DNA of 64,000 nucleotides from NCBI GenBank assembly GCA_034096865.1, contig JAWQFJ010016987.1:2501-66500 (forward strand), given 5' to 3'. The stretch comes from Theodoxus fluviatilis. Lineage: Eukaryota > Mollusca > Gastropoda > Cycloneritida > Neritidae. Below, one piece after another: positions 3,086 through 54,700 of this stretch. The number at the start of each line of letters is the position of its first letter. Position 1 is the first letter of the stretch. Below the pieces are notes generated by a model, which was not told the DNA's origin, searched no databases, and saw only the letters and a program-made list of their open reading frames with translations. The translations under genes were made by a program, and so were the position numbers.

Positions 3086-3140
<55 letters not shown>

Positions 3141-3884
3141 ATGAGTGCGTGTGTGTGTTTTTGTGCATGCATGTGCATGTGTGGTGTACATGTGTTCTTC
3201 TGCATATCTGATGACAATTGAATTTGGAACAGATTCTAAAGGCAAGCAAATCCTGATACACATATCAGAGAGTGGCTGTGCAACAGCTGTGCCTTTGGTG
3301 TATGATTAAACTTATTACTTAAACAGTCTGAATACGGGGCAGTCAGCAAGTCTGGAAAAGGGTGGGTTACATTTCCTCATCATTCCTGTATTAATCAGAA
3401 AGATATGGATGGCTTCTTCTTCTACCAAAGGTACATCATCATTCCATTTCAGAATCTGCTTGTCATGCTCTCCTGAGAGAGGTCTGGCAGAGCACCTGAA
3501 GAGAGGAAATTGAGACCTTACCCTCAGTGCATGCTTCAGCTGCACAATTTCTTTCTGCATTCGGGAATAGTCCTCTGGCGTCAGTTGTCTTTCAGGGGCA
3601 TTACTACTGACAACTGCAAATAAGATTTTTTTTTTTGCATCACAAAATAATACAGAATGGAGTATTTATGGAAAATGCAGTATTCTGTTCTCCTGAACAA
3701 AAAAATAAACACAGCCTTAATTCCTCCCTTTTCCAACATAACATTAATTAATGCATGCTTTTTTTTCAACAGACTTTATTCAACCATTCTAAATGCAGCT
3801 AGAGAAAGTAGCAGGATAACATTATATAAATAACCTCACACACATACACACACACACACACATACATACACACACACATACACA

Positions 3885-3956
<72 letters not shown>

Positions 3957-6900
3957 AAAACAAGACAAGAAGGGCAAAGCCCATACGACTCACATGCTTG
4001 ACCTTGACCTTTACATGACCTTGACCTTTACATGACCTGACCTTCAGGTGACCTTCAAGGTCAAAGTCAAACAACTAAACCTAGCAATGACATCATGCAC
4101 TAAGAAATGCTTTACACATTTTTCCTACCAAATTACATGTGACCTTGACCCAAGGTCAAGGTCATCCAAGGTCACGCAACACAAAGCTGTTAATTCAAGA
4201 CATAGGAAGCACAATGATGCTTATTGGCACTTTCTACCATGAGATATGGTCACTTTTAGTGGTTCACTACCCCATTTTGGTCACATTTCATAAGGGTCAA
4301 AGTGACCTTGACCTTGATGATATGTGACTAAATGTGTCTCATGATGAAAGTATAACATGTGTACTACAATGTTATGAAGTTTGGAAGAGTTATCTTCCAT
4401 AGTTCAGGGTCAAGGTCACTTCAAAATATGTATACAATCCAACTTTAAAGAGCTCCTGTGACCTTGACCTTGAAGCAAGGTCAATCAAACTGGTATCAAA
4501 AGATAGGGATTACTTTGCCCTATACACCATATATAGGTGAGGTATCCAATCTCAAAAACTTCAGAGAAAATTGAGAAAATGTGAAAAATGGCTGTTTTTT
4601 AGACAACATTTATGGCCCCTGCGACCTTGACCTTGAAGCAAGGTCAAGTCACTATGTATATTTTTTGAGGCCTTGTCATCATACACCATCATGCCAAATT
4701 GGGTGTTGATAGACTTAATAGTCTCCGAGAAAAATCCAACGTTAAAGTTTTTCACGGACGCCCGGACGCCCGGACGGACGACACGGGTGAGTACATAGAC
4801 TCACTTTTGCTTCGCATGTGAGTCAAAAAGGATAGTACTGCAAAAACAATACAGTCCACAATGTTCTGCAGGGAGGCACTTAAAACAACAAACAAACATA
4901 CAAACAAATAGAAAACACTACTAATAAGTACCAAAAGTGTAATCTATATTCTGACTGTCACAGATACACAATAATTCATACAGATGGATAACTAGGATCA
5001 CAGATATTAACACCCTTTTCTGGCATATGTTGACATGGACACATTGAAGTGCAAGAAAATGCTTTGGCCCTCTTGGGTCTTCACCTCCAGTGCTTCTCTG
5101 CATCTCAACAGCCTCTGATGAGGTATTGCTGGTTGTTACCCCTGAAAAACGCAGCATTCCTCCTTCAACAACTCAAAACTAGAGAGCACTCTGAGAGCGC
5201 AAACCCCCAAGGGAAGCACAACTACTCCTCCATGGCCTGCATAATTAATTCAGGCAGGATTTTCTGCTAGCCAGGCCTGATGCTACAAAGTTTAGTTCAT
5301 GTTAGTGTCTGAAAGTGGTTTCTGGGTGCTGAACACATGTCACGATGTCATCAACTTCATGATTTGCAATTAAAATTTATCTTTATGTTACAATTCCAAA
5401 ATGAGATGACCTCCAAAATTTCCTGGATTGTTCCTTGGGTGAAATCCTGACCTCCCATCAAATTTCATCAGGATCATTTGTAAACTTTTCTGGTTGTTTT
5501 GCTGAATAACTCATTAAATAACTAATGAACTAACCGAGGATAAAACATAATCTCTTTGGTGGAGGTAAATATAGGAGGCACGGGGTTACTGAATGTTAGG
5601 GGAAAGGGGAGCTTACTCTCATCGATGCGGGGGTCGCTGATGCTGGGCTGCATGCTGCCACCCTGCATGGGACGTCTTCCCGCCTCCTCTGTCTTGGACT
5701 TGCTGCCTGCAGGCAACACGTACCACCATTTCATCAAGGAGAGGCTTTCAGTTTGGGTCAACATGTCCTGTATTAATGTTACATAGAGTAAATTAGGCTA
5801 GAAAAAGGAAGCAAAAGACACAAAAACATAAATAGATTGTATCTGTTGCACACTCACTTCAGTTATCAACAGTATTTCCTATGTGGGTGATATCATTCTT
5901 TTTTTCAAGAACAACAACAGTGTCTGAGCAACCTAAAAAAAGATTTGAAACAGAAATGAAAATTACGTACTTATGCTGGTAAAAGAAAAAAGAAAATGCT
6001 AATTCTCCAAAAGACATGGATGCCCACATGCAAAGGTATGGACACGCTCTACAATTTTCATACCTGAACAGAATGCTCCAAATATAGTAGCCACATGGTA
6101 AACAACAATTAGACAGAGGAAAAAAACTGGAAAGAGACAGCAGCTGGGCCACAGCTGACAGGGAGCTCATCACAGGAAAGGCAGCACTGGCGGGAAGAAA
6201 GACTGCAAGACATGCTGGGTGTATCACTGTATGGGTACACGAATAGCTGCAGAACAACTGGGGGAAGTCATGATAAATGGTAGTGGGGAGTGCAGGGTGA
6301 TTACCATAAGTCAGGCTCTGCGATCTGTTGTGGGTCAGGCCAGCAGCACGACCGTAACCTCCGTAGGAGCCAGGAACGGAGGAGGTGGAGGAGGTGAAGG
6401 GGGAGGGGGAAGTGCCGGAAGCAACAACAGGGGTGGCCAGGTTGGACAGGTCAGGGGAGGAGCCTGGGATGCCGGGGCAGCCTGACTTACCACCACTGCC
6501 TGCCTCTGTGGTTGGCTTATCTGTGCGCAGCAAGGAGGAGGAGGACATAGGTTTCTCTGTAAGACATTTCCAGCAGCAGGTGCTGGCTTAAATGCTGCAA
6601 GCTTTGACATTCAGACCAAAAATTTATGTTACAATGATAAATATATGGTTCTATATGGAGACTAAATCATTAAATATTAGCAAGAATGTCTGCCGATTAT
6701 GCACATGTATATGATAGCTTTGGAAAAATCAAGTACATGTATTTAGAGTCTCTTTTGAAAAAATACTCACCAGATACTACAGATACAGAGATACACGTAC
6801 TTTATTTGCTGCTTTTAATTAAAAGGAATTTTTCTCGTCCAGCAACATATAAGACAAACGAGTGTACTGGAGTATTTACATAAAGAAAATATACATAAAT

Positions 6901-18071: not shown

Positions 18072-21000
18072 TCATAACCTAAAGAAACCCTTAGGGCCAA
18101 AGCGAATGTGAAGTCTTCGCCTTCGGACAAATTTGTAGGCCAGGAAGAAGAGAATAAAGAAGCTGATGGAGAAAATGAAGTACATCACTTTGGGAGACAG
18201 CTGAGAGGGATTCAAGTCTTTGTGGAGCGTCTCTTTGGGGTATTCAGCCTGATGGCCCATGTAGGGTACTTCCACCTTCCCTTTCTCCATCGACTCTTTC
18301 TTTGGCGAGTCAACATTTTTCTTCTCTGGTTCTATATTGGGTTCATCATAGTATGTATACTCTACATCATCCTGAGCTTGCTGATCTGCAGTGTCTTTCT
18401 TCTTTCCTTCAATAGCAACTCCATTCTCATCCTCCCTCTTCAAGTCATGGCCAGCCAGCCCCGCATGTCTCCTAGGTCCCCCCGCTGCCTGCCTGTCTCC
18501 TCCAAAGTGCACTATCTTTCGGTCCCTGTTGTTGGGGTCAATGTTGTTGTTCTCTGGATACATTTCATCGTCATTGTCATTGGTGTCGTTGTAGTCAGCA
18601 TCAGTATCCCCATCGTCTTTGTAGTTGGCATCCTCATCTGCGTTGTCCTCACCTAGCTCTTCATCTTCATTGAAATCCATGTTCTCCCCATCAGCACCAC
18701 CATCAAGCATGTTGTCAATGGGATTCTCATCTGCATCCTCCTCTTCTTCCTCCTCCTCCTCCTCTTTGAAGTCGTTTTCATTCTGAATCATGTTCTGCTT
18801 GACAGGGATGAGGCCTTCCTTCTTTACCTTCTGCGAGTCAGCAGCCAAATTGCCTTTCTCCAGCAGTGTCCTGGATGTCTCCTGCAGGATGTGGCCAGTC
18901 TGATTTAGGACCATGGGGCCAGGGTCGATCAGGTACCGCAAGTACATCACCAAAGCTCCACTAGCCACTGCTGACTTGTGCGAGAGGCATCCATCTGGAA
19001 GAGATGGAAAGGAACAAAAAAAAATAAAACCATTGCTGAAGATTGGAATCAATAAAGGAGGAATACTGGCTTCCTTGCTGGACATAACGTTTGATCAATA
19101 TCATAACCTTTCCAGTCATTTGCAACTGCCGAGTCTCCGTTGATGTTCTGAGTCAATTGGAAGTGTGATTGTTTGCTGTTTACCTGAGGCTAAAGTGATT
19201 GACATACTGATGCTTCCAGACTGTTGTAAGTATTGTGATATGCAAAGAAACCCACTAAAGGAACTGATAGTTCTGGGCTACTGTTGATGCATGCATTGCC
19301 AGTACTTCACAAAATGGAATACCGACAAGTAAGAACAATAAGATGGGCCATAAAGTCCCATGCTATCAAGGGAAAGTAAATGATCCTTACATAGACAATG
19401 TGATGCACCCACCCCATCTGTTGCAATGGGGTTCATGTAATGACCTCACTTTTCCATCCAAGCAACGACCAAAATCCATGTACATCAGTGTTATGAATTT
19501 CAAGTCTACAAGTGCAGAAGTTCAGAAGTGGACATTACCTGCAAGCTCTTTCTCAGCCTGCAGTTTTCTTCCAAGCCTGATACCCGGATTCCTCAGGGTG
19601 CGATGTAAGAAGGGAGAGCGCAGACCACCTGGGATTTGCCGGTCCCCCACAAAGGGCACAGGTCGTGGGGGGACAGGGCCATCAGAGCCCTGACCCTGAC
19701 TCTGCCTACTTTGGGAGGGAACGGTCCGCAGACTGCGAGGCTTGTCCTTGGGCCAGCCCCGGACTGCCTGCTTCAGGGGATCCAGTGGGGCATTCTGAGA
19801 CTGCATGATGGCCTGTCGCCAGTTGGGAACAGCTGCTTTTGGGGGAACAGCCATTCCTGGGACACCAGCAGCTGCCTCTGGAGGAGCATCTATGTTGTTC
19901 TTCAGTTTCCAATGGCGGATGGCCGATACACTGGGAAGGTTCTGTGCAGCGCCCCTGTTGTCCTGTGACAGAAGGTTCTGTTCTCTGGCTTTCTCTCCTC
20001 TAAGACTGTTGCCATCCAGTGCAGGCATTTCCTGTTGGTTTGCTTGTCTCACTTGATTCTCCCTTGCAGCCTCAGCTGGAGCTTGTACTGGCATTCTCAA
20101 CACAGGCTGATGTGGGGCCATGTTTTGGGCAGCTTGTTCTGCGGGAAATTTCTGGGGTAACGACTGGACCTGGTCTTGCTTGTCCTGTCTCATCATCATC
20201 ACTGGTTCCTTGAAGGAGGGTTGGCGCGTACGGTGGTTTTTCCCTCCTGACTGCTTTCCACTAAGTTGGGTCTCAGGGAGTTCCCCATTCTTGCCATAGC
20301 AGCCACTGGGCAACTGCCAGGAGAGAATCTGTTGCAGATATTCACTGCTGAGAAATTCATAAAACCCCAGGCTAGGGCACACAAATTCTGCAAAGACAAG
20401 GTGAGAAAACTGAGTGAGTGCACCATTGCTTTTCAGTGTGGATGGATGGATGGATGGATGTTAATGACTCATCAGCCTATGCAGGCTATGTAAGGCCTTT
20501 AAGCATGATCACAACTAGAAGAGTTTACAGTTAGCACAAATCCATCATGATTTCCCTAATTATTCGCCTCATATGAAATGCACAGGGAAACGCGGTGGGT
20601 CTATTCTGACCCCCAACCCGCAGGGTGCGTTTGCTTTTCAGCAGCTGAAGCAGTATGTATCAAACTGCACATGAAGTACATGCCTGAGAAAAGTGTAAAA
20701 TCTGCAGTTATCATGATTATGAGAATTGATTCAACATTGACTGTGCAAATTGTCTTTTTTCTCTGTTTTAAGAGCACAGTTAAAAGGCAAAAAAGAAAGG
20801 AAGATTATCCATGTCTTGGCTTCAACACAAAAAACATCACCAACGCTCTGTATGAAGGCCTTAAAAAAAACTAATCGTTTACAAACGAGACTTACGCTGC
20901 TCAAGAAACAGGTCTTGATAGCTGGGTAGGATAGTGCCATGCATGACGGTTTGGACACTGCTCTCCATTTCCTGGAAGTTGTTGGCACAGAACACGGCCT

Positions 21001-21933: not shown

Positions 21934-24900
21934 CGTGCGTGCAAGCGAGCAAAAGCCAAATTTGACCAACTTCTCCTTTTTTTTTTCCTTCACAACTTAT
22001 GAGCTTTCCCACATTAAGTGAACACCAATAATGGGGCACATGGCACAGACCACCAAAAAAAGTGTTTTGTTTGTTTCAGAGATGATGATTTGGACCCTGA
22101 AATGCTGAGACTGGATGAAAATCAAAATGATGAGCTGAAAGTTTGCTTGCACAAGTAGAAATGGATGCCATAATTGTAAAAATCATGTTAGAAAATTGCT
22201 ATATTTATGGTTAATTTGTTTTGACTTTATTATTAAACTTTAAAAGTCAAATTTTCCAAAATGTGGATTTCCTTTCTATGGTGACCTTTTTCTGCCCCTA
22301 AATATAAAGTGACTTGGAAGATAGCACATTGAATTTTAGCATGTTTGCATATAAATAGATGTAGAGCAATAAGACTAGTCAGAAAACTTTAACTTTATTT
22401 GCTACTTTTAATCATGTCATGCCGGAAGGGGTTTATTTCTGATTATAATGTCACTTACCCATAGAAACATTTGTAAGTGCAACAAATACATTTTAATGTG
22501 TTATTGTGCAATATAGTCCTTCTTCTTTGTTTGCAACCATTGCAGATCATAAAAAGGTTGATCATTGTAGTTTGAGAGAAGAGCAAAAATAGGTATACAT
22601 ATTTTTCAGTTACTATGTCATAAATCATTAATAACTCATTCTGAAACAATGAAAATAAGTCTGAATATTCCTTGAAGTGTGTTTGTATTGTTTGCAAAAT
22701 TTCAATAATATACCATTTATATTTGCTGAGCAATGAATGTTTTTTCTAATACCCAATTGTGACCCCGCACCACCAAACCAGTCTTAAGGTGGATTTTATC
22801 ATTTTTGAGATGTTTATATTTTTGAACTCTACAGAGTTTCCTGATTAATTTGACACCAAAACGAACCTGGTAGCTAAAGAATTGTGGAAGTTATAACGAG
22901 TTGAAGTTGAAAACTCAGTCGCGACTTGTTTTGAGAAAACGGACCTCAAAGTTTTGCATGCAATCCTCACACATTCTCCTTAGCAACAGGGTCTTAGAAT
23001 TATCCAATCATCTTGATTTTTGGCACAGCAGAAGAAAGCAAAGAAAGCGTGCGAAAGACCATGTGTTGAGGTTCTGCAAGGGTTACGTGTTGTTTTGCAG
23101 GGTCAAAATTGGTCGATTTTGGCAAATAAAAATGCTCTAAGTTATCACAATTATAACTTTAATTAATTTTTTAATGCACTTAAATACATTTTTAAGACAT
23201 AAAACTTATACCATTTTATAGATTAATTTTTAGAGAATGCAATGAACCGAAAACCTCAATTTCACCCAGGCAGACCCCCACCACCTTCAGAGCTGTGTAG
23301 TGCCGTTTCGATGATTGCGAGTTAAGACTGATTTCCAGAAATGGGTCACAATTGTTCTATGCCATGTGCCCTCATAAAAAGCTCGTACTATGGGATATAT
23401 ATAAACAAAGCTTCATTTTGTATGCCTCATGATTTGTTTGTTTGTTTCCTTTCTTTAAAAATTCAACATTTGATCAATTCAACATTTGATCAATTCTCCA
23501 AAAGGAAAAACTAGACAAGAATTTTTTTAAATAATTAGTCTAATGACAGAGGACAGGTATAGAAATAAAAAGGCTTCAGACAGCTTTCATCCCTGCCTTT
23601 CACAAGGTCACATGGCCTTACAATAAAAACTACATTTGATGGCCAGCCATCTTGTTCTAGACTGAATTAAAAGCACTCCTTCTGGTGCAGAACATGGCAG
23701 TACGTTCCCTGGTCCAGTGCATTCCCTGACTGCTCACCTTTTCTGCCAGCATTGTCCACAGCATCTGGTGGGTGATGCTGTAACCATATGAACCACGCCG
23801 AGTCATGACGGTCAGGCACTGATTGGAGAGGCTGCACTTGGGTTTCTTTCCCGTTCCCAGCAGCTCCATCATGCACCGGTCACTCATGTCCTCACTCAAA
23901 TTCACTGTTGCAAGAGAAGCAGACAGTCAAAACTAGACATGAACGATAGTCAGCAAAATGCTTTTGTGTGCATGTCTAAACCAGCAGTAAGCACTAGACA
24001 GTTTGCAAAATGTACTGGCATACACGTGTAAACTAGACATCAGGAGCTAAATTTCATGGGCTGGAGATGAGGTAACAGCAAAATTATTATGGGGTAAGAG
24101 AAATACTTGTGCCACTGCCATTATTAATATGCTCCCTGGGAACTTTTGAGTACTGTGGCTAGACATATAGCCTTGGAAGAAGATGATATTGCATGATTAA
24201 ATGTCACAAGTTGTTACTGCTCTTTCCATAGTGACAGAAGATGATAATATGTCTGTAAAACTGTATGTGAGAATAGAAGACATACACTTGGTCATGGAAG
24301 GTGTTAATCTTTCTCATGCAGAACACTTAATTACAGGGTCACTGAAACAATTATGCTATGTGCATCAAAGAGACATAAACATCTAAACAACCATTTTGGG
24401 TACTTTGTTTTGCTTTCTATCAAAATTATGCAAAGAAATGTTTTGCTCTCTTTCTTGACTGTCAGTATCTTGCAGTTAACAAGCACATAGTGTTCCATTT
24501 TCTAGTTTTACTTTTGATCGCATCAGATTTGTGACACATTTCATTTAGTTCTGCACTTTGGCTGCATAGTTTGACCACGATGTAAAAAAAAATATTTCAG
24601 TAGAGTCCTGAACAGAGAAGACATCGATTCATTTAATGCCAGACTGTTCAAACAAAAACAAAAACAAATGCTTTCCAACAGCAAGCACAGCCACAAGATA
24701 TGCTGAGAAGCAGATGACACAAAGATATGATTCCCTGACTGCGGTTTGAAAACACCACACTCCACAGTAATCACATCCTGAAACCTAACACAACGGCGAT
24801 TTATCGGCGATTTATTTTAACTCCGATTTATCTCTAAACTCAGACGATTCCAACTGCCTGTTCCGCTCTCCCTTGGCTAGAAACCAGTATATATGTGCAC

Positions 24901-30800: not shown

Positions 30801-32845
30801 ACAAACTGTATCAGTGTATGCTATACCATCTTCCAACAAGAAGGGCAAAGCCCATAGGACTCACATGCTTGACCTTGACCTTTACATGACCTTGACCTTT
30901 ACATGACCTGACCTTCAGGTGACCTTCAAGGTCAAGGTCAAACAACTAAACCTAGCAATGACATCATGCACTAAGAACTGCTTTACACATTTTTCCTACC
31001 AAATTCCATGTGACCTTGACCCAAGGTCAAGGTCATCCAAGGTCACGCAACACAAAGCTGTTAATTCAAGACATAGGAAGCACAATGATGCTTATTGGCA
31101 CTTTCTACCATGAGATATGGTCACTTTTAGTGGTTAACTACCCCATTTTGGTCACATTTCATTAGGGTCAAAGTGACCTTGACCTTGATGATATGTGACC
31201 AAATGTGTCTCATGATGAAAGTATAACATGTGTACTACAATGTTATGAAGTTTGGAAGAGTTATCTTCCATTGTTCAGGGTCAAGGTCACTTCAAAATAT
31301 GTATACAATCCAACTTTAAAGAGCTCCTGTGACCTTGACCTTGAAGCAAGGTCAACCAAACTGGTATCAAAAGATAGGGATTACTTTGCCCTATACACCA
31401 TATATAGGTGAGGTATCCAATCTCAAAAACTTCAGAGAAAATTGAGAAAATGTGAAAAATGGCTGTTTTTTAGACAACATTTATGGCCCCTGTGACCTTG
31501 ACCTTGAAGCAAGGTCAAGTCACTATGTATGTTTTTTGAGGCCTTGTCATCATACACCATCATGCCAAATTGGGTGTTGATAGACTTAATAGTCTCCGAG
31601 AAAAATCCAACGTTAAAGTTTTTCACGGACGCCCGGACGCCCGGACGGACGACACGGGTGAGTACATAGACTCACTTTTGCTTCGCATGAGAGTCAAAAA
31701 TTCATTTAGTTTTACTTGTCAATAGGAATAAATATGAAAACTTACAAATTTATACAAACAAACTCTGATCAAATTTATTCACGAATCAATTAAATACATA
31801 ACTATTACTGCCACTTTCTTTACAAATATTTCCCCTCCAAAACGGTTTACAACACACAAATTACAGAATGAAATGTCACAGAACTACAGCACAAGCACTC
31901 AGTGGTGTAGAAGAGCACTGATGCTCTTATGATGTTCCACAGTTTGAGATAATCGCGAATTGCAAGTCAAAATGAAATGTGAGGTCAGGTCTACTATTTT
32001 CCCCTTTCCTTTTCCTTAAAAAGCTTGTCATTTAGTTCCTCTGTAACATTAATGGCGTAAGAAATGTTATCGCCAATGCATTGTGAGTTTCTGTGCTGTT
32101 AGTTCTTTTCTGTGAAAACGAATGTGGATCCCTAATCCTTTGACGCATCAAAGCCAGTAACATATCATTCATAGCTGACAAAAGTAAATACTCACATTCA
32201 AAGCACATTCATCTTAGCAAGCCCTCTCGTGAGATTCTTTTTTCACTTGGGAAAACGGTTTGGAACTTCATTGTTTCCATTCAACGAATAACTCATTTCC
32301 CATTAATCGCAATAGAGTTTGCAGTATTCATTTCTGAACTACTAGCATGATGATAGGGCGATCATTGTACAAAACATGGGGCTTGTCTACCCGTGCCAGT
32401 TGCTACTGCAAGCAATCTTCGTGTATTGTTTACATACTAACATAGCATGCACACAGCATCTCCAGGCATGAATCAGCGCATAAAGGGATGCATGAGCAAA
32501 CCAACGAAAATCAAAGCCAAATAATGTAGCTAAGTCCACGAATGCATCAAGAAAAGTTGGGCGGGTGTTGGCAACTTCAGTGACTTTTTTTTCTGGAGTT
32601 TGATTTACTGTTACCCCTAAGCCTAGGGCTGGGCTAGAGCCTAGGGCTAGACCGCTAGTCTTACCTTCTGCAACGCGGAGTCCGTAAAGTCCATCGAGGT
32701 TAACATTGCGGTAATTGGAAATGTAATATCCGATAAGTTTTGACAACGCATTCACAACAATCGTCAGCGGTTGCTCTGTATCACCCGTCCACACAACGGG
32801 CAAGATAAACAAAGAGAGCAACACAATCACATTGGCAGCCGCCAT
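18072..32845 (-). CDS. C16orf89: C16orf89 (UPF0764) homologue, complete, with long linker and C-terminal membrane anchor
   Basis: Six exons: 32845-32665, 27603-27346, 23904-23738, 21067-20896, 20387-19539, 18994-18072. Total is 2550 nt, 849 residues and a stop, with exact phase closure. Residues 1-20 form a signal peptide (VIVLLSLFILPVVW). VNLDGLYGLRV (48-58), CMMELLGTG...C, GYSITHQMLW, AVFCANNF, FYEFLSSEYLQQILSWQ and DGCLSHKSAVASGAL (from 542) match the vertebrate family in order. NXS/T sites occur in NTS, NLS and NQT. Residues 293-541 are a Gln/Pro-rich linker inserted before DGCLSH. After the conserved core come an acidic stretch with a run of nine Glu, a Lys-rich part and a membrane segment at about 812-832, ending in RRRRLHIRFGPKGFFRL. 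The vertebrate protein is a secreted thyroid-enriched protein of about 360-400 residues without that anchor. The molecular function is unknown. Confidence 0.93.
20436..20645 (+). mobile_element. dispersed repeat of about 190 bp, copy B
   Basis: It starts in (GGAT)n, continues CATCAGCCTATGCAGGCTAT and ends GGGTCTATTCTGACCCCCAA. It is the same family as 9505-9690 and 37606-37790, and lies in the C16orf89 intron between exons 5 and 4. Confidence 0.75.
21858..21931. repeat. (CA)n microsatellite
   Basis: A pure CA tract in a C16orf89 intron. Confidence 0.95.
22754..23354. mobile_element. 601-bp TIR element (MITE-like)
   Basis: The left end CAATTGTGACCC and the right end GGGTCACAATTG are exact inverted repeats. 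A second inner block, CAGTCTTAA, also occurs near both ends in inverse orientation. AATT flanks GTGACCC on both sides and could be the target duplication. No ORF has recognisable similarity. Confidence 0.7.
24786..24895 (-). mobile_element. fragment of the CGGGCC-ended MITE
   Basis: ACGGCGATTTATCGGCGATT, then TAACTCCGATTTATCTC and GCCTGTTCCGCTCTCCCTTG, is the reverse complement of the right half of the complete copy at 51474-51707. Its outer terminus is missing. Confidence 0.8.
24900..27345. other. C16orf89 intron with an ETS-like tandem at 26040-26530
   Basis: This is mostly AT-rich. At 26414-26510 a 42-bp unit (GCGGAAGTGG...GGAAACGGCCGAACC...TACTTCGACTG) is tandemly duplicated, and CCGGAAGTG, an ETS-type core, also lies near 26050. 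This GC-richer island inside the intron could be an old promoter or repeat. I see no exon. Confidence 0.4.
27732..27825. repeat. (GT)n microsatellite
   Basis: About 94 bp of GT with one GA interruption. Confidence 0.95.
27909..28578. repeat. 73-bp tandem array, nine units
   Basis: Units begin GTGCAGTAAGGCTAGCTCAA at 27909, 27982, 28057, 28130, 28203, 28280, 28353, 28426 and 28501. The spacing is 73, 75, 73, 73, 77, 73, 73, 75 and 73. The extra bases are all in the TATA of GATCTATA(TA)nCAAG. Divergence between units is very low. It lies in C16orf89 intron 1. Confidence 0.95.
29036..29280 (+). mobile_element. GTTGTGGTTATGGTAACC repeat family, copy 1, with C homopolymer
   Basis: A run of about 28 C, then A-rich sequence, then GTTGTGGTTATGGTAACCCA, TTTTTTTCTGCTGACCCT and CCATCTTCCTGCCCTATGAG. 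The same blocks in the same order occur at 30650-30835, 47985-53702 and 62860-63125. Confidence 0.7.
29281..30649. other. C16orf89 intron 1, no recognised feature
   Basis: Apart from the G tract at 29449-29476 this is AT-rich sequence without exon-like or repeat-family signal. Confidence 0.5.
29449..29476. repeat. G homopolymer
   Basis: GGGGTA followed by 24 or more G. Confidence 0.95.
30650..30835 (+). mobile_element. GTTGTGGTTATGGTAACC repeat family, copy 2, truncated by half-site element
   Basis: A C run and an A run are followed by GTTGAGGTTATGGTAACCTG and end at CCATCTTCCA, exactly where the half-site element copy 2 begins. The element apparently landed in this repeat. Confidence 0.65.
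30836..31700 (+). mobile_element. half-site repeat element, copy 2 (865 bp)
   Basis: It is nearly identical to 3965-4829 over the whole length, with only scattered substitutions. Such low divergence implies recent spread. It lies in C16orf89 intron 1. Confidence 0.9.
31701..32664. other. C16orf89 intron 1, 5' part
   Basis: Unique-looking sequence up to the donor after exon 1. Around 32615-32665 the phrase CTAGGGCT is repeated (CCTAGGGCTGGGCTAGAGCCTAGGGCTAG), a small local palindromic duplication close to the donor. Confidence 0.5.
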
Positions 32846-34138: not shown

Positions 34139-35007
34139 TTTTTGACTCACATGCGAAGCAAAAGTGAGTCTATGTACTCAGCCGTGTCGTCCGTCCGTCC
34201 GTCCGGGCGGGCGTCCGTCCGGGCGTAAAAAACTTAAACGTTGGATTTTTCTCGGAGACTATTAAGTCTATCAACACCAAATGTGGCATGATGGTGTATG
34301 ATGACAAGGCCTCAAAAAACATACATAGTGACTTGACCTTGCTTCAAGGTCAAGGTCACAGGAGCCATAAATGTGGTCTCAAAAACGGTCATTTTTCACA
34401 TTTTCCCAATTTTCTCTCACGTTATTGAGAATGGCGACATTAGCTACAAGTGGTATATAGGGCAAAGCAAGCCCTATCTATTGATACCAGTTTGGTTGAC
34501 CTTGCTTCAAGGTCAAGGTCACAGGAGCTCTTCAAAGTTGGATTGTATACATATTTTGAAGTGACCTTGACCCTGAACTATGGCAGATAACTGTTTCAAA
34601 CTTAATAATTATGTGGGGCACATGTTATACTTTCATCATGAGACACATTTGGTCACATATCATCAAGGTCAAGGTCACTTTGACCCTTATGAAATGTGAC
34701 CAAAATGTGGTAGTGAACCACTAAAATTGACCATATCTCATGGTAGAAAGTGCCAATAAGCACCATTGTGCTTCCTATGTCTTGAATTAAGAGCTTTGTG
34801 TTGCGTGACCTTGGATGACCTTGACCTTGGGTCAAGGTCACGTGTATTTTTGGTAGGAAAAAATGTGTAAATCATTTCTTAGTGTATTTCTTAGTGCATG
34901 TTGTCATTGGTAGGTTTAGTTGTTTGACCTTGACCTTGAAGGTCACCTGAAGGTCAAGGTCATATAAAGGTCAAGCATGTGAGTCGTATGGGCTTTGCCC
35001 TTCTTGT
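34139..35007 (-). mobile_element. half-site repeat element, copy 3 (minus orientation)
   Basis: It starts TTTTTGACTCACATGCG and ends GGGCTTTGCCCTTCTTGT, the reverse complement of the copy 1 ends. It is somewhat more diverged than copies 1 and 2, with small indels. The TCAAGGTCA sites are largely retained. Confidence 0.9.
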
Positions 35008-35404
35008 TCATTGGTGTAGCATGTTTACTATAGTTACAGATAGGGGCTCGCTATGCGAAGTGTAGCTCAAACTTGAAAAAAAGTGTTCCTGGAACAGCAC
35101 TTTTTAAGCACATACGTTTGCGTATTCAATTTGTCATAACTCTGCAAACTCTGCACACACATCTATCATGATTGTTTTTGTATCATTTTGAAGAGCATTT
35201 AATGTTCTTTACGATAACACACCAAACTGAAGGTATCTTTGCGACTTATTTGGGCACGACCGTTACATATGAAGGCTACACGTGTATATCTCGTTTTCAT
35301 GGTTGGTGCCCATCCACATCATGGGGTGCGTTTGTTAGGAGTAGAATCTCGAGATTCTCCCTCGATGGCCAGTCGAGGGAGAGCGAGACGCTCATACAGC
35401 TAAA

Positions 35405-36568
35405 ACAAGAAGGGCAAAGCCCATACGACTCACATGCTTGACCTTGACCTTTACATGACCTTGACCTTCAGGTGACCCTCAAGGTCAATGTCAAACAACT
35501 ACACCTAGCAATGACATCATACACTAAGAAATGCTTTACACATTTTTCCTACCAAAATACATGTGGCCTTGACCCAAGGTCAAGGTCATCCAAGGTCATG
35601 CAACACAAAGCTCTTAATTCAAGACATAGGAAGCACAATGGTGCTTATTGGCACTTTCTACCATGAGATATGGTCACTTTTAGTGGTTCACTACCCCATT
35701 TTGGTCACATTTCATAAGGGTCGAAGTGACCTTGACCTTGATAATATGTGACCAAATGTGTCTCACGATTAAAGTATAACATGTGTACTACAATGTTATG
35801 AAGTTTGGAAGAGTTATCTTCCATAGTTCAGGGTCAAGGTCACTTCAAACTGTGTATAAAATCCAACTTTAGAGTTCCTGTGACCTTGATCTTGAAGCAA
35901 GGTCAAGTCACTATGTATGTTTTTTGACGCCTTGTCATCCTACACCACCATGCCAAATTGGGTGTTGATAGACTTAATAGTCTCCGAGAAAAATCCAACG
36001 TTAAAGTTTTTTACGGATTACAGGCCGCCCGGCCGCCCAGACGGACGTCCGGCCGCCTGGACGGATCACACGGGTGACCTAGTATGAAAGTATAACATGT
36101 GTACTACAATGTTATAAAGTTTGGAAGAGTTATCTTCCATAGTTCAGGGTCAAGGTCACTTCAAAATAGTATACAATCCAACTTTAAAGAGCTCCTGTGA
36201 CCTTGACCTTGAAGCAAGGTCAATCAAACTGGTATCAAAAGATAGGGATTACTTTGCCCTATACACCATATATAGGTCAGTTATCCAATCTCAAAAACTT
36301 TAGAGAAAATTGGAAAAATGTGAAAAATGGCTGTTTTTTAGACAACATTTACGGCCCCTGCGACCTTGACCTTGAAGCAAGGTTAAGTCAGTATGTATGT
36401 TTTTTGACGCATTGTCATCATACACCATCATACCAAATTGGGTGTTGATAGACTTAATAGTCTCCGAGAAAAATCCAACGTTAAAGTTTTTCACGGACGC
36501 ACGGACGCCCGGACGGACGACACGGGTGAGTACATAAACTCACTTTTGCTTCGCATGTGAGTCAAAAA
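35405..36568 (+). mobile_element. half-site repeat element, copy 4, internally rearranged
   Basis: The right-end phrase TAGTCTCCGAGAAAAATCCA occurs twice (about 35977 and 36457), and so does the AGTATAACATGTGTACTACA phrase. A unit with an internal deletion (35405 to about 36080) is therefore followed by the right part of another unit (about 36083-36568). At the join, GGACGGATCACACGGGTGA replaces the usual CGGACGACACGGGTGAG. Confidence 0.85.
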
Positions 36569-45717: not shown

Positions 45718-48700
45718 CTAGCTCATAATCAAATAAAAGCAAAAATGAGCAAATGCAAACTGATACTCTAAACTGTGAATACCAGTTTGTTGAGTAGGCA
45801 TTTCAGTTCCAACCCTGCGTTTCTCAATGCCGTATATTCAAAATGAAAATAAAGAATAACATGCTATCAATCTGTCTAGCACCCATCTCTTCTTACAGTG
45901 AGGTATGTAGTTTCCAGACATATTTTCTCAACATCTCAAATTCAAACCAGGTAAAGAACAGCAAATTCAAACTATCCATTTTAAGTTCTCATAGTAAATA
46001 ACATGAATCGTAGCCTTTTTTTCCTCTCACATCTCAAGTTCAAATAAAAATGAAATAAAATTAATTCTGTGCATACAAACTGTCTGTACTACAAACAATG
46101 CCATTTCATAAAGAAAGGCATCCAAATTCCAGCCCCACCTTTCGAAAATGTCCCAGGGCCTCTTTAACTGTGGCAGTGGGGGGGCTGTGGAAAAATGCTG
46201 CTGCTGCCTGTCGCTCCAGCCATGTCAGCATGTACACCTGGCATGAAAAACATTTCAACTGGTCATGTGACACACAAAGCTTTCCACCTAAACCCAGGAA
46301 TATTACATAGCTGCAGCATCTCTTCTGTGAACTATTTGATTCCACACAAAACCTCAAAATGATCAATTTTGAACAGTTTATTTATGCCATAAGTCAACCT
46401 TTTGAAATGATGTTTTGGATGCAGTCACTGCATGCGATTGCCACAGTGGAAAAAATTCTAGGTTTCTCAAGAAATTTTATGAAACAAGCTTTCTGATCCT
46501 TTCAAGCAAGGATTTGCCATGGCAAAACTACAAAAACTTTCTTTTAAGGGGGTGGGGGTGGGGTTTGTGTTCTTTTTTAATCACAAGTGACTGGGAAACC
46601 TCCATAACATGCTTTAAAACCAAGATCTCTACATGCTTTACCACTTGGCATATGCTGGACACTGGGAGTAGGGGTAGTCTACGCTACTGGGCATTATCAT
46701 TGAAGAAACCAGATGGAATTTAACCAACAAAACTTTTGAATACATCATTAAATGAAATGAATCATCCCCTTTCCCATCCTCCTGCTGCTCCTCCTTCTTC
46801 TTCACCACAATCATCTTCACCATCAATGCTGGCTGATATGGACATTTCTTAAATCCAGCTCAAAAGTAAAAGGTTACCGTTAGAAGTACACTGCTTCATG
46901 TGACTTCCATAAACTACTAACAGTTTGTAGACAGCACAGAGTGCAGGCAACATGTTTAATCAACTCACACTGTAGCACCATCTTCCAAGCATGTACAGGC
47001 AGGTGGACTCTGCTGGGTTTATCTTCAATGCTTTCTCTATGTGTTCCTGAAAGCAAAGTGGTTCTCAGTGTCGCGGTTGGGGTAGGTGGTAGTTGGCTCG
47101 ACCATCAACCGGACAGTAAAAATAAATAAATATGGGAAATTCTTTCCTCAGTCACTAATCACATTTCAAGACAAAGACGCCACAAACCGAATTCAATGTA
47201 AAACAATTAACTCATTACAGAAAACCTTTTTCTAAATAAATGAACATACAAACTGCAAACCAATTATTACAAACATAAACTTTTAAAACCGCCCAGCGGG
47301 CTACAGTGATTTACATTAAAGCTCTTAGTCTCATTTCTTCTTCTATTTTTATTCCTCTTTCCATTCCCCATTGCAAAATAAAAACCAGTCTTTATATATA
47401 AAAAATTCCCTGTGCAAGAACCCGTAAATACTGTGCAACAGGGGACAGGCAGCATCAAGGTGGAAAAGCACGTGCAAAAACACCTCTGACAGCAAGCGCT
47501 GACGCTGCATAACGCTTAAAGGTGAATAATGCCGTCCGTACTAAAAAAAAAACATGAAGTGGACTTAAAGTCACGCCACCCATGAGCCGTGTCAGACCTT
47601 CTCTTTAATCTTTTCATAATATTATAAAATAATAAACTGAGTCGTGACACTCAGATCAAATTCAGACTGGTAAGCAGAGTTACAAGTCTGCACTCAACTA
47701 TCATCTACATCAGGCATTAATCATGAAAATGAACTTTGACCTCTCAAGCCCAGTGAGGAGCAGTCCAGACCCATCAGAGCATGAAAGGAGATAATGCAGC
47801 CAGCCTCAAGGAGCCCCTGGGGCAGTGCCTTGTCCTCCACCACATCTCAACTCATGGCAGATACACATCATATTAGGCCCCCACCAGAGCAGGAAAGGAG
47901 ATAATGCAGCCAGCCTCAAGGAGCCCCTGGGGCAGTGCCTTGTCCTCCACCACATCTCAACTCATGGCAGATACATATCATATTAGGCCCCCACCAAAAA
48001 TAAGTTGTGGTTACGGTAACCTGACCGACCCCTAATTTTTACTGCTGACCCTAACCACTCTTTGGGATATGTTTTAACATGGTCAAAAGTACGGAGGTGA
48101 GCAGAGAGCTGTTACATGAGTTCCTAAAAGTAAACTTTATGAAAACTTAACAGTTTTGCATGAATATGGTAGGATTTGTCATGAGAATCAACTACCCAGC
48201 ACATAAATTTAAGATGATGCTTTGTTTGGTTGCATTTTTGAAAAAAGATGTTGAGTCTGTTCACAACATTAACGCCGTCACACATTTCAAACACACACTG
48301 TATAAACTTTTAAAAGTGGAAATCTTTGTTATTACATCTTGAGAACTCACCACATGAGTCAAAACTGTCATACACATTACAAATTTGAACTGAAAACTAG
48401 TAAACAAAGACTTTAGAAAATATAATAATGAGTCTGTTCACAACATAACGCCACAACACAATTCCTCATTGAAAGTCATGCTTTAAGCATTAAATATGTC
48501 AATTTTAGTATTAAACAGTTTTTAGATGTATTCTAAATGTAACAAACACATATTTAAAGAAAAGCAATGGCACTGGGAATGTATATATCATTAGATAATT
48601 ACTTAAGTCTTTCGACCATTTTAAATGGTTACATTTTTTCCATTTAAGCACATCTGTTGGACCAATGTACTTATTCTCACAGTCCAAGTTGAGCAGTGGA

Positions 48701-51700
48701 CATCAGAAAACTTAAAAGTGAAATCAGAAAATAAAAATATTTGAATCCACTCTTTGTAAACCCAAAAATTGAATTCTGATCAATGTCTGTTCACAACATT
48801 ACACCGTTACAAACTTTTTTCTTTTTTTTAAAGTGACAAATTTTGAATTCTGAATCAGGAAGAATGTTTCAGAGGGTGCATAAGGAAGACAGCTACAATT
48901 GCATCCCTTGCCATGCTTATTAAAACCCTTCACAGTAATCTTACATGAAATAATAAGATTTTGTTCACAACATCACACAAATTTGTTCACAACATAACAC
49001 AAAACCAATGAAAAAAAGTGCATGGAAACAGTATTTTATTACCAAATGAATACACCATACAAAGCAACATAAAAGTAAACTACTATTACAAGAAATAGTC
49101 ATGAAACATATTTTACTCCTGAAACATGATATGACATCACATGTAGTAAAGTGTGAGAATGAACTCGTTACTGTCTGGTGTCCTAAGTTTCATTCCAGTC
49201 AAACACTATTTGTCACATCAGGATTGCAAGAGTTTTAAGAGAACTATAGAGCCATAAATAAAACAAAAATGAAGAGTTACAAGGTCACCACTCAATAAAA
49301 ACCTCACTTGAAGTTCACCGTACCACTAAAAAGGTAATCTGCAGAATCACAAGGACACTACACCACAAAAACAATAATAATCTGAAGAATCCCAAATGTC
49401 AGTACATCACAATCAAATAATCTGGAGAATCACAAATTTACGTACAACACAAACACATATTTTAAAGGCCTGTTCTTACACACGATTATGATAAACTGGT
49501 GCTCTCATCCATGACGAAAGCATATCAAATGCTAAAACTTAAAAAGAAATGAGCCATAAAACATCAAAAACCATGTGAACAAATATTCAAGAAAGAACTA
49601 ACTTGAAATTTCAGACTAGTACAGAGTACTGCTTGTTAGCTAATGTGACCAGAAATTACTTAAAACAATTCTGAGGGAACACTTTAAAATGCTACTGTGA
49701 ATGGGTTCTATACAATCATGCAATACATCCCCTAGGGACCAAAATAAGACTGCTATTTGGAGGTAGGGTGCTATTCAGGTTCATTCAGACTGACAAAGAC
49801 AAATCAGTACAACATGACACAGTGCTATTAGCAGATGTACGGTGCTAATTGGAGGGGTGCTATTTGCAGGTTCCACTGTACATGCTTCATAGTGTACAAA
49901 GAAGTTTTACATCCTTCACACTAAGTGGGGCCAGCAACTTCAACAATAAAAATGAAGTTGATAATATTCACTTTTGAAAAAACAACAACTTTCTTACAAA
50001 AAGTTATGATAAACTGGGGTTGTCATTATCTGGGACACAAAAGCATATCAAATGCTAAATGAAATGAGCCATAAAACATAAAAAACCATGTGACCAAAAC
50101 TTGACATTTCAGAATGGGTAGTCAAATCAAATGTTAAAAGTATAATGCCCTCTCCTGTCCACATGGGCGTCTAAAACGCAACAGATGTCTTGCAGCAGTA
50201 CCAGCGCCTCATCTGGAATGTCTGGGAACTGGTAAGACCCCCCTAGCTTCTTCAGGAAACTAATCTCCACCCCACCTTTGTCAGGCCTCAGACGCTTGAC
50301 CTGTAAACAATGATGACAAACATTAGAACATTTAAAACCATGCAAGTTCGCCAAAAAATGTGCCTTACTTCATAATATTAAATTTTATGAATGAATGTAA
50401 ATTATATGGAACTATACTGCAACGCCTTTGCATTAGGTAATAAAGTGAGGTTCAGTTCATTTCTGTACTTACACATCCCACAAACTGCTTTGACTCTACT
50501 CCTGATTCCGCGTACACCGTTGCCTGCACGAAGTCGCCATTCTTGACAGTTGATCTGCAACAGACATATGGCAACATATACAATTAAAATTCACAATCTA
50601 TGTTTCAGCACAACACAAAAGAATACCTCATTGTCCGACATTAATTTTAGTAATTATCAACTCTACTCTGTACTTACTCAAATTAGAATAAACACATCTA
50701 CATGCTGTGTTTGTACATAACTTAACACCCAACCTTTGCGTACTGTTATGAACTGCCTAGATTTATTAAATAATCATCAATTTCTTTGTTTTTTGTTGAG
50801 AAAATATAACATGGTGTGTTCAGAAAAGATGATGTTTACTTTTACAAAAGATTTAGTACTTTTGGAAGGTTGGGTAGAATTTTACAGTCTGTTCACAACA
50901 TTACACAAAGCTCTTTCTTCAGCCAGCATATCCATTGTGTATGGTTATGAACAAATGCTCACATGAGTTCAAATTGATTTTTCAAAACAAATTCTATGTT
51001 AGATTTTATGTTTTGGCAACAACAGAAAATTAAAATTAAGTCCAAGAATCTAAATTTCAAATTAGAATAAACACATCTACATGCTGTGTTTGTACATAAC
51101 TTAACACCCAACCTTTGCGTACTGTTATGAACTGCCTAGATTTATTAAATAATCATCAATTTCTTTGTTTTTTGTTGAGAAAATATAACATGGTGTGTTC
51201 AGAAAAGATGATGTTTACTTTTACAAAAGATTTAGTACTTTTGGAAGGTTGGGTAGAATTTTACAGTCTGTTCACAACATTACACAAAGCTCTTTCTTCA
51301 GCCAGCATATCCATTGTGTATGGTTATGAACAAATGCTCACATGAGTTCAAATTGATTTTTCAAAGTAAGGTCAACAGGATTTCTCACTTTTCATTGTCA
51401 GCATTTCATTCAGCACAAAGCAAGTTAAAAGTATACAATCACAAAAAAAGTTGTTGAAAATTTTAATGTACATGGCCCGTATTCACAACGGCGATTTATC
51501 TTTTTAACACTCGATTTATCCCCTAGCCCCGCGTTATCTTGATCGGTTAGATAAGGTACGCTCGTCAGAAGATTCTAGGTTGCGCTTTGCTATATATACT
51601 GGTTTCCAACCAAGGGAGAGCGGAACAGGCAGTTGGAATCGTCTGAGTTTAGAGATAAATCGGAGTTAAAATAAATCGCCCATAAATCGCCGTTGTGAAT

Positions 51701-54700
51701 ACGGGCCCATAACTTTACCCCCCAAAAATTGCGTTAGATTGTGAACAAACCATAACTTCAGTAATCTCATAAATGAGAAATAAACTTTGTTTTTCTCTGC
51801 TTAGTACTGATAAAAGTAATGTATAAGCAACAGGGCATTTCATTTTAGATGTTATTTGGGGTTTATGTGCCACTTTCCAAGTCTGTTCTTAACATAACAC
51901 ACAGCAGCTTCCTTACCCAGGGTGTTAGGTTATGAACAAACAGTAGTTGTTAAAAAATATATTTTCAATCAGAACTTTATTTTAATAAATGTTGCTAAAT
52001 GTCAAACAAATGTACTGACCTACCCAAATTCTCAAATGTATCTCTATTGTGGTTTATCAGTGGTTGTTCTTAACATAACACCATTGGATGATTAGCACTG
52101 AATGTGTAAAATTATGAACATCCTGAAAGTTCTTCAAAATGAAGACATGAATTTGACAAGTTCACAAGAACGTTCCAAGAAATAATTTATGAGGAAGGAA
52201 ATAGTTGCTGGGTATATTTATCCTTCAGTTTCAAAAATAAAGCATGTTTTCTTCGTACATAACAATAACTCCACGACTGTGACAATGTGTGTGTGTAATG
52301 TTGCGAACAAAATGCGTTTTCGGTAAAAACGCGCCAAGATCAGATCTGCCGATCCTGTGAGTTTTCTTTCATTTTGAACTTTGTCAAAAATCGCAAATCA
52401 AGTATACCTACCGAGTTTATGGTTAATTTATCATGGTTTGTATCCGTTTGCAACTCTTACACCCTGGGTCATCAATTATACTTACAGTCGACGTACGTTT
52501 TTCGATCAAAAGAACAGACACGATGGGTTTTCAGTTCCGAGAAGAAAGTGGTGCAAAGCTGAACAATCGATCTCGTATTTACCAACACTAACTATACACA
52601 AATAATGTTCACAACGTCAGATATTAGCTGTTTTCCCTCAAAACAAGGCACATTTGGCCGTACACAACGGAATATCACCTCAAACTTACCTTCGTTATTT
52701 GCCCCAGGCATATCCATTCTTCAACTGCACGCGATCCTCAATGATAGCGTGGGCACGTGACTGCGCAAGAATCGACATCCCGCAGAAAAAATATTTCCGC
52801 AACGTGATTTATTTGAAAATGTTCGAAACAAAATGGTAACACAATTTCTGCCACGATTGTTAAAATGTTGTTTTTTATGCGTAAAAACAAAAAATTTCGG
52901 ATTTTCGAATCAATAAACATGAAAAACAATTGCTGCGGCAGTTCTACCGATGATTGCGCAACGCATGACGGTGTCGTCTGCAAAACGTGAACGGTTTAAA
53001 ATTCGCAAGCAATTGTTACGCAAATAGTTGCGTACGGATTGCCCCCGTTTTGTTCCTCAAATTCATCATTCTGGGTTATGTTTTTTTGCCTTCCAGCAAG
53101 TTTGCTATGAAGAACAATGTCCCAAGTATAATCATGGTATAAAACGATCATTGAGATCGCTTTCTGTGTATGTGAATTTTTGCTTGAAAACTAACACTCG
53201 TGGAAAATGTAACACTCTCTCTGTTTTCCAACACCCGATTTTTCAAACAAAAACGCAAATAACTCAACATGCAGTATTTTTTATTGACACAAACATTACA
53301 TTGCCAGAAACATGAATCTATTCAGAATGCAGCAAAACAAGTTTGAAGCCTTTGTGAGGTCATGATTGAGTTTGAGAGACAAAGTTTCTGAGACAGGTAG
53401 CGAAATTGGCCCTCTGCTCACCTCCGTACTTTTGACCTCATGCAAAGACAAAAAACCAAAAACAAAAGAGAGAAAAATTGGCAGTAAATAATGGACTGCG
53501 TGCTGTTCCATCTTCCCTGCCCTTTGAGCAATCAGGGGAATCCCCTATTAAATATTATGTTTAAAAAAGCGTTCTCAGCAAAAGAGAAAATTGACTTGTG
53601 TACAATCTGGCCTCCTCTACAACAAAAATGTAAAATAAAATTTAAGTTTCAGGCCAACCTACTGATCCACCTTTTTGTTAACCATGTTACCATAACGACA
53701 ACTTTTTTTGTTTTGGTGCCTTACTAATCCACATTGAAGTGATTCTCCATCCCCACAAGTCTCATTGATTTCTTGTCAAATGACAGTTGCAAAATTTAAC
53801 ACATTTGTTGATTTTATATATTAAACTTTCACTAATTTTAATACACAGAATACATGTCTGAGCAGACTATGCTCAAGTAACACCAGTGCATGAATCAAGA
53901 TCTATGAATTACATGTAAGCTCCTGCAACGTATATATATATATATATATATATACATTTGGGGAAATAACTTCTATTAGTACTGTTTGCAATTACACACA
54001 TTTACTGATTATAAAATTTGTACTAAATTTGTCAAATCTTGAAATCTGATATAGATTCTGAACTTGCTTCAAGAATTAAAACTAGATCATTTTTTAAAAT
54101 GGCCCTTCACTTGACAAAGATATACTCACCTTGATGGCATAGCTGCTTTTAATTTTGTCAGTGGTCGTCTCAAACTCTGTGAGCTGTCCTAATACAATGG
54201 CATACCTACAAGAAAATGCACCCTAATGATAAAAAAGTACATGTCTGCATATTATCAGACAAGAAAAACTGTTCATACACATCTATTTGTATATAAAAAA
54301 AACACTAACTCAAAAGATATTCAATTTACACAATCACATAACATAAAGTATTAGAGTGATGAGGGGCTCTAAAATTTTGGGAACCTATTTAGAATGTTTC
54401 TTTATCAACATGTTTACCAGCATTTGTGCTCTTAGCATTAATAATATGTTGTGTTTTTGGTAAATATTATCTACACTGTGATAAAAACTTGCTGAGCGCT
54501 TCCAATTTCTTTAGGATGCTCATAAAAGCAGTGATAATGAATTATGATGAATGAGGAGGAGGGGAAGGGGGAGGGGGAGATGGAGGAGGAGGACATTGAA
54601 GGGGGGGGGGGAGGAGGAGGAATAGGAGGAGGAGGAGGAGGAGGAGGAGGAGGAGGAGGAGGAGGAGGAGGAGGAGGAGGAGGAGGAGGAGGAGGAGGAG

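Follow-up and report, generated by a model that had tools for sequence, protein, structure and literature searches.

Our analysis of a 64,000-nucleotide stretch (the window) of the 965 Mb Theodoxus fluviatilis assembly shows that a transposon at 48081-53437, bounded by terminal inverted repeats (TIRs) and rich in a 17-bp motif, carries its motif sites on a ladder with steps of about 180 bp, and that most of the related families tested keep this spacing with motifs of their own. The model we favour, although its chances of being right or wrong seem to us about even, reads the motifs as family-specific sites to which a protein encoded by the element would bind; their nucleosome-repeat spacing would serve to open chromatin and/or to let the ends be recognised. 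A preliminary description of this DNA had reported the element and its paired motifs, an observation we can confirm, yet it had missed the ladder, which is the strongest feature.

Motif sites form a regular ladder

The two ends of the element are identical over their full 26 bp, as previously claimed, and no further TIR match was found in the 64 kb at up to six mismatches; the flanks (ACAT/TCAT) probably represent a decayed 4-bp target site duplication (TSD). Scanning with the 17-bp motif at up to three mismatches gave 17 matches (0.85 expected), all within the element, and a weight matrix from the element's own sites found 20 sites above 11 bits inside and one outside, in keeping with the roughly 17-20 recurrences counted before. 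The sole outside site (12252) scores 11.9 bits, comparable to the weakest inside site, 52254 (11.8 bits). Including one site that is split by a nested miniature inverted-repeat transposable element (MITE), the element holds 20 whole sites plus the split one, arranged as follows.

48081-53437, no strand: non-autonomous TIR DNA transposon of family A, 5.4 kb
48081-48106, + strand: left 26-bp TIR, 26/26 exact against the right TIR
48258-49000, + strand: left array, unpaired, motif starts at 48258, 48435, 48788, 48962 and 48984
50678-51365, + strand: exact 309-bp duplication (50678-50986 and 51057-51365) with a period of 379 bp, about two rungs
50712-50754, no strand: convergent pair 1, 50712+/50738-
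50890-50953, no strand: convergent pair 2, 50890+/50937-
51091-51133, no strand: convergent pair 3, 51091/51117, duplicate of pair 1
51269-51332, no strand: convergent pair 4, 51269/51316, duplicate of pair 2
51467-51747, no strand: convergent pair 5, 51467+ (split by the MITE)/51731-
51474-51707, no strand: nested MITE, 234 bp, with a 26-bp TIR and the TSD CAT, splitting the + site of pair 5
51884-51938, no strand: convergent pair 6, 51884+/51922-
52065-52120, no strand: convergent pair 7, 52065+/52104-
52254-52309, no strand: convergent pair 8, 52254+ (weak)/52293-
53412-53437, - strand: right 26-bp TIR, 26/26 exact against the left TIR

All five left sites lie on the + strand, just as the preliminary description had it, and the right-hand sites make up eight convergent (+ then -) pairs, two of which stem from the 309-bp duplication. 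While the convergent pairs reported before are real, three had been overlooked (50712/50738, 51091/51117 and 51467/51731), and the ranges given for the pairs were too narrow: start-to-start distances measure 26-47 bp rather than 38-47 bp and spacers 9-30 bp rather than 21-30 bp. Moreover, 50890/50937 and 51269/51316, formerly listed as two pairs, are one pair copied by the exact 309-bp duplication, which is why their spacers are identical. We kept 52254/52293, earlier a probable pair, as pair 8, although its 52254 arm is weak (leave-one-out score 1.7 bits). With the MITE removed, the + site of pair 5 has a leave-one-out score of 13.9 bits against a maximum of 11.6 among 116,886 outside scores, and it is whole in 8/8 family-A copies checked. 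The MITE itself is not present in 8/8 other family-A copies checked and is younger than its host element, and the 309-bp duplication is absent from copies L011 and L012. Additional candidate sites at 48611 (degenerate) and candidate rungs at 49138, 52205 and 50533 were discarded, being unsupported by the ungapped matrix. A fragment 97% similar to the MITE (GGCCCGTATTCACAACGGCGATTTA..) lies in reverse orientation at 24789-24894, and no inverted-repeat pair was found around it.

Measured with the MITE removed, successive pair midpoints are 188.5, 190.5, 188.5, 188, 185.5, 181.5 and 189 bp apart (mean 187.4 bp), with gaps of 126-137 bp between pairs. After removal of one duplicate, the best period of the pair array is 186 bp, a regularity equalled by 0/4000 random placements, and the rungs of the left array, spaced at 177, 353 and 185 bp, have a best period of 178.5 bp (null fraction 0.0018). 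Midpoints are not significantly more regular than arms (0.067), and phasing of the sites on a helical face is weak.

This spacing might be the duplication relic of a decayed, satellite-like tandem array of about 180 bp in which the motif alone is still recognisable, as in pearl elements or BIV160/Cg170. In molluscs, satellites with units of similar length do have motifs that are conserved among them, and they are found inside mobile elements (PMC5139131). Duplications are at hand as well, one of 309 bp in the window element and another, about 710 bp long, by which L034 differs from L035 (see below). With the motif arms masked, however, unit-to-unit similarity was found in none of 15 comparisons (p>0.15 in 15/15), and the gaps are about as alike in register (0.315 and 0.278) as out of register (0.295 and 0.296), so recognisable tandem repetition does not explain the spacing. 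Neutral decay beyond recognition should have brought indels, yet the spacing of these dissimilar units varies by only a few bp, and four different motifs (A/B, C, E and F) share the same interval class. To our minds, a decayed satellite is therefore rather improbable. Still less credible, indeed barely so, is that the paired motifs form DNA or RNA hairpins. As single-stranded DNA, two of the five pairs gave more stable folds than their shuffled versions (z -3.3 and -2.0) but three did not (z -0.7, -0.1 and +1.7), and the arms, being no more alike within one pair than between different pairs, show no within-pair co-variation, which argues against hairpins; we rejected them.

Copies in the genome and conservation of the motif

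Genome-wide, the motif has 331 exact matches and a reversed control pattern has none. Of these 331 matches the first 100 were listed, and 97 of them have another match no further than about 2 kb away. The 20 loci that we fetched, all from this hundred, align in 20/20 cases to the element with at least one of its TIRs (up to four mismatches; both TIRs in 13/20). In this sample, then, nothing bears out the objection, on which the preliminary description had made its reading depend, that the motif is equally frequent outside elements with these ends. The same figures speak against the capture, by the elements, of sites for a host factor such as a transcription factor or an insulator protein. That the pair array sits between a CpG-rich region and retained exons would suit such capture, but each family examined, A and B excepted, has a motif of its own, and we consider host-factor sites very improbable. 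Both ends were present in 14 elements, of which 10 are flanked by exact 4-bp TSDs; the exceptions are the window element, L013, L015 and L028.

Family A (copies L011-L018) is 97-100% identical in aligned blocks, and L018 is without part of the exon region. On contig C249, two family-A elements lie about 7 kb apart in inverted orientation. Family B (L019-L029) measures about 2.4 kb where both ends are seen and is mostly 90-92% identical to the window element over the left 966 bp (L021 is mixed, 97% then 75%) and about 66% at the right end where alignable. The expectation that other copies would keep the paired arrangement holds in part: the eight-pair array is lacking in subfamily B, whereas the left array is kept there and the period is similar; B also has one convergent pair and inverted doublets of its own (+ + and - -) with sites 22 bp apart. 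Most B copies have one further motif site. In L024, the best period is 178.5 bp (0/4000 random placements equally regular), the part not shared with A giving 0.047 alone.

Judging from copy comparison, the motif looks to be under selection, as had been proposed. In L030, a diverged B-like copy, motif positions of the left region are 76/85 (89%) identical to the window element and the remainder 572/855 (67%), a contrast with a Fisher p of 6.5e-6 and a p of 0.003 on circular shift of the five-site comb. L024 shows 82/85 against 777/855, which is not significant alone (p 0.10), and for the internal sites of family B (83/85 against 429/449) overall conservation is too high for a test.

Most sister families tested show the interval with different motifs

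Family C (L034 and L035; TSDs ATAT and GTCT) has the same C-terminal exon at 65-66% and carries the motif GTAACCTGCG at 385, 584, 773, 1504 (weak in context), 1689, 1855 and 2031. Relative to L035, L034 has a duplication of about 710 bp (about four rungs) that keeps the phase of the ladder, like the 379-bp period in family A. Family D (L037 and L038), with TIRs, TSDs ATCT and ATAT, copies 99.985% identical and a 1033-aa frame, has CAGTYGAAAC sites only outside this frame, with convergent pairs 45 and 35 bp apart. Family E (L041) has a TIR, the TSD TATG, an 844-aa frame and the motif TGTAACTTAC, and family F (L039/L040), whose right end was not seen, has a 1116-aa frame and the motif CGGACATGAA at 541, 720, 897 and at four places near the other end. 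While A and B share one motif, those of the families are not recognisably one sequence; the closest likeness, between C and E, covers 7/10 positions (random 95th percentile 6).

For an unbiased view, we searched one copy per family for the 10-mer whose successive sites most often lie 165-200 bp apart, allowing one mismatch, counting both strands and merging sites no more than 60 bp from each other. L011, without MITE and duplication, stood for A, and L031, L032, L033 and L036 were left out because their element ends are undefined. Best counts were 5 in A, 4 in B, 5 in C, 3 in E, 3 in F and 2 in D; among 100 Markov shuffles per family none reached 3, and for D 34/100 reached 2. In the nine remaining 35-bp bins no count exceeded 2, apart from 3 in B at 340-375 bp, the double period. 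Enrichment at 165-200 bp is hence strong in A, B and C, suggestive in E and F and negative in D; A and B have the motif and the left array in common. The surrounding window, cut into 22 overlapping tiles, also gave one tile with 3, in a TGACCTT repeat region. Large, interspersed TGACCTTGACCTT-rich repeats, 79-99% alike, occupy 3965-4780, 30836-31651 and 34200-36515; two of these blocks are exactly 26871 bp apart and one such tile scored 3 in the ladder scan.

A candidate transposase and the class of the element

The window element is non-autonomous and internally deleted but retains two exons for the C-terminal domain of a candidate transposase.

50127-50300, - strand: last coding exon, C-terminal domain (VKRLRPDK...HYTFNI stop), splice site by eye
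50473-50554, - strand: exon of the C-terminal domain (STVKNGDFVQ...FVGC), splice sites by eye
52321-53060, - strand: CpG-rich region, presumed promoter of the truncated gene

These exons belong to an uncharacterised protein of about 900 aa, whose frame is open in related elements, where it measures about 850-1100 aa. A homologue of the 601-aa open reading frame (ORF) in L031 has a predicted fold that resembles integrase cores, with three acidic residues placed on an RNase H-like fold as in DDE enzymes; the related open-frame members would thus, going by predicted structure, encode a protein with an integrase-like DDE core. Sequence searches gave no such hint: the L031 ORF has 0 Pfam families at E<=1, the candidate transposase no match to integrase models in Pfam and NCBIfam, and the window exons none in Pfam or the PDB, while homologue searches with the exon peptide found nothing and single-exon fold prediction was of low confidence. 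For P0001, 50 of 18,456 first-look candidates in the genome were scored, and these gave 51 matches. Contig C10736 has two relatives of the protein about 19 kb apart in inverted orientation. In L031, the two parts of the DDE-like gene have a hAT transposase ORF between them (2100-4214, - strand, 705 aa, Dimer_Tnp_hAT), and long repetitive coding sequences stand upstream of the C-terminal domain in L031 (5568-6404, PPLRLPPLLPPLRL-type) and in L032 (5636-7096, ETAATAT-type); L037 has tandem repeats within its long frame.

The preliminary description had named P, hAT and KDZ elements for their many internal transposase-binding repeats. Such a label is unsupported here, given the 4-bp TSD and the retained exons of a candidate transposase whose predicted fold is integrase-like. 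P elements have TSDs of about 8 bp. TSDs of KDZ (Kyakuja/Dileera/Zisupton) elements are 7-8 bp long and those of hAT elements usually 8 bp, with variants of 5-7 bp (PMC12730594), whereas the duplication here is 4 bp. We place the element among related animal TIR transposons that duplicate 4 bp of their target, a length also found in families C, D and E.

What the ladder may be for

In the model we favour, the 17-bp motif would be the family's own binding site for a protein that the element encodes; the likeliest candidate is the transposase itself or an accessory version of it, which would bind as a dimer at convergent pairs. With the sites one nucleosome repeat apart (about 177-187 bp) in the non-coding ends and the 5' region, the bound protein would phase or exclude nucleosomes; this may keep promoter and ends open against silencing, and bound sites would also mark the ends for recognition. 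The CpG-rich region, which may be the promoter of the truncated gene and whose observed/expected CpG of 1.56 ranks first among 1055 windows (740 bp each) across the 64 kb, adjoins the pair array and would be compatible with protection from methylation. Motif turnover with the spacing kept in most tested families is what one would expect if chromatin constrains the co-evolution of the protein with its sites.

The main rival to this model, ahead of the decayed satellite, remains that the motifs are subterminal transposase-binding repeats for end recognition and synapsis only, as in hAT or CACTA elements, with the spacing of about 180 bp reflecting chromatin accessibility. Motifs that differ between families are compatible with it, and in families D and E, among the matches listed, sites fall outside the long open frame and none inside. 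Hermes, a hAT element, requires subterminal repeats that are bound by BED domains, the first two together making a quasi-palindrome, and resembles our element in having repeated, partly palindromic sites outside the TIR (PMC10368747). The Hermes sites, however, are short and crowded at the tips, where the outermost 55 bp of each end contain five, and the part of PMC10368747 available to us mentions no long-period ladder; here, where the TSD is 4 bp, the first site lies 177 bp in and the pair array begins more than 1 kb from the right end. Synapsis would have no obvious need for regular spacing over more than 1.3 kb, and so to our minds end recognition alone is somewhat unlikely.

Beyond the single element, one may envisage, although we think it less likely than not, an unnamed group of animal transposons in which every family has a private motif and a private protein at nucleosome-repeat spacing; specificities would turn over while host nucleosomes hold the spacing, as a nucleosome-positioning counterpart of plant anti-silencing. 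Motif arrays in transposons are already known, but a spacing of about 180 bp kept across families with differing motifs would link the evolution of transposon sequences directly with the geometry of nucleosomes, and chromatin engineered by the elements themselves would become testable with one data set from micrococcal nuclease digestion (MNase) or the assay for transposase-accessible chromatin (ATAC). Several DNA-binding specificities could also be compared within the candidate transposase family, a large one for which neither Pfam nor NCBIfam gives a match. An open-literature search (subscription journals and Repbase lay outside its scope) found no paper with the letters of the motif or TIR, and nothing among the literature matches listed, including those on nucleosome repeat length and TIR transposons, was recognised as this ladder.

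Other features of the window

The motif-free middle of the element contains a 40-bp tandem repeat (49376-49455) and a repeat of about 110 bp (49473-49583/49991-50098) whose copies are about 518 bp apart. The clearest host gene seen in the window consists of ORFs resembling DUF4735 at 18072-20382 (- strand), only 19522-20382 passing the Pfam cut-off. Rfam and tRNA scans of the window found nothing. Against viral contigs and phages, the motif gave two single exact matches, the TIR and the exon peptide no match, and the stretch 50100-53437 no match to phages.

Relation to known systems

Pearl elements and BIV160/Cg170 resemble our element in their satellite-like repeats, conserved motifs and residence in mobile elements (PMC5139131). 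The names BIV160/Cg170 suggest monomers of about 160-170 bp; according to the same source these are recognisably related to one another, which the units here are not. Among integrase-like eukaryotic DNA transposons, Ginger1 and some IS481EU families likewise have 4-bp TSDs, and Ginger1, Ginger2 and IS481EU are related to retroviral integrases (PMC10045372). The accessible part of that source, however, makes no mention of motif ladders in them, and our protein lacks an integrase match in Pfam or NCBIfam.

By analogy, the closest functional parallel is the VANC/VANDAL system of Arabidopsis, in which family-specific motifs in non-coding DNA recruit the anti-silencing VANC protein (PMC5735166, PMC10398659). 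VANDAL21 and VANDAL6 differ from our element in some respects, as VANDAL21 motifs have one orientation within tandem repeats, rather than convergent pairs in unlike units spaced at about 180 bp, and VANDAL TIRs are degenerate where ours are perfect; the binder here is putative and the host belongs to another kingdom. What they have in common with the element described here is a short, family-specific motif that is dense in non-coding parts and introns, that differs between related families and whose dense arrays are unique to the elements.

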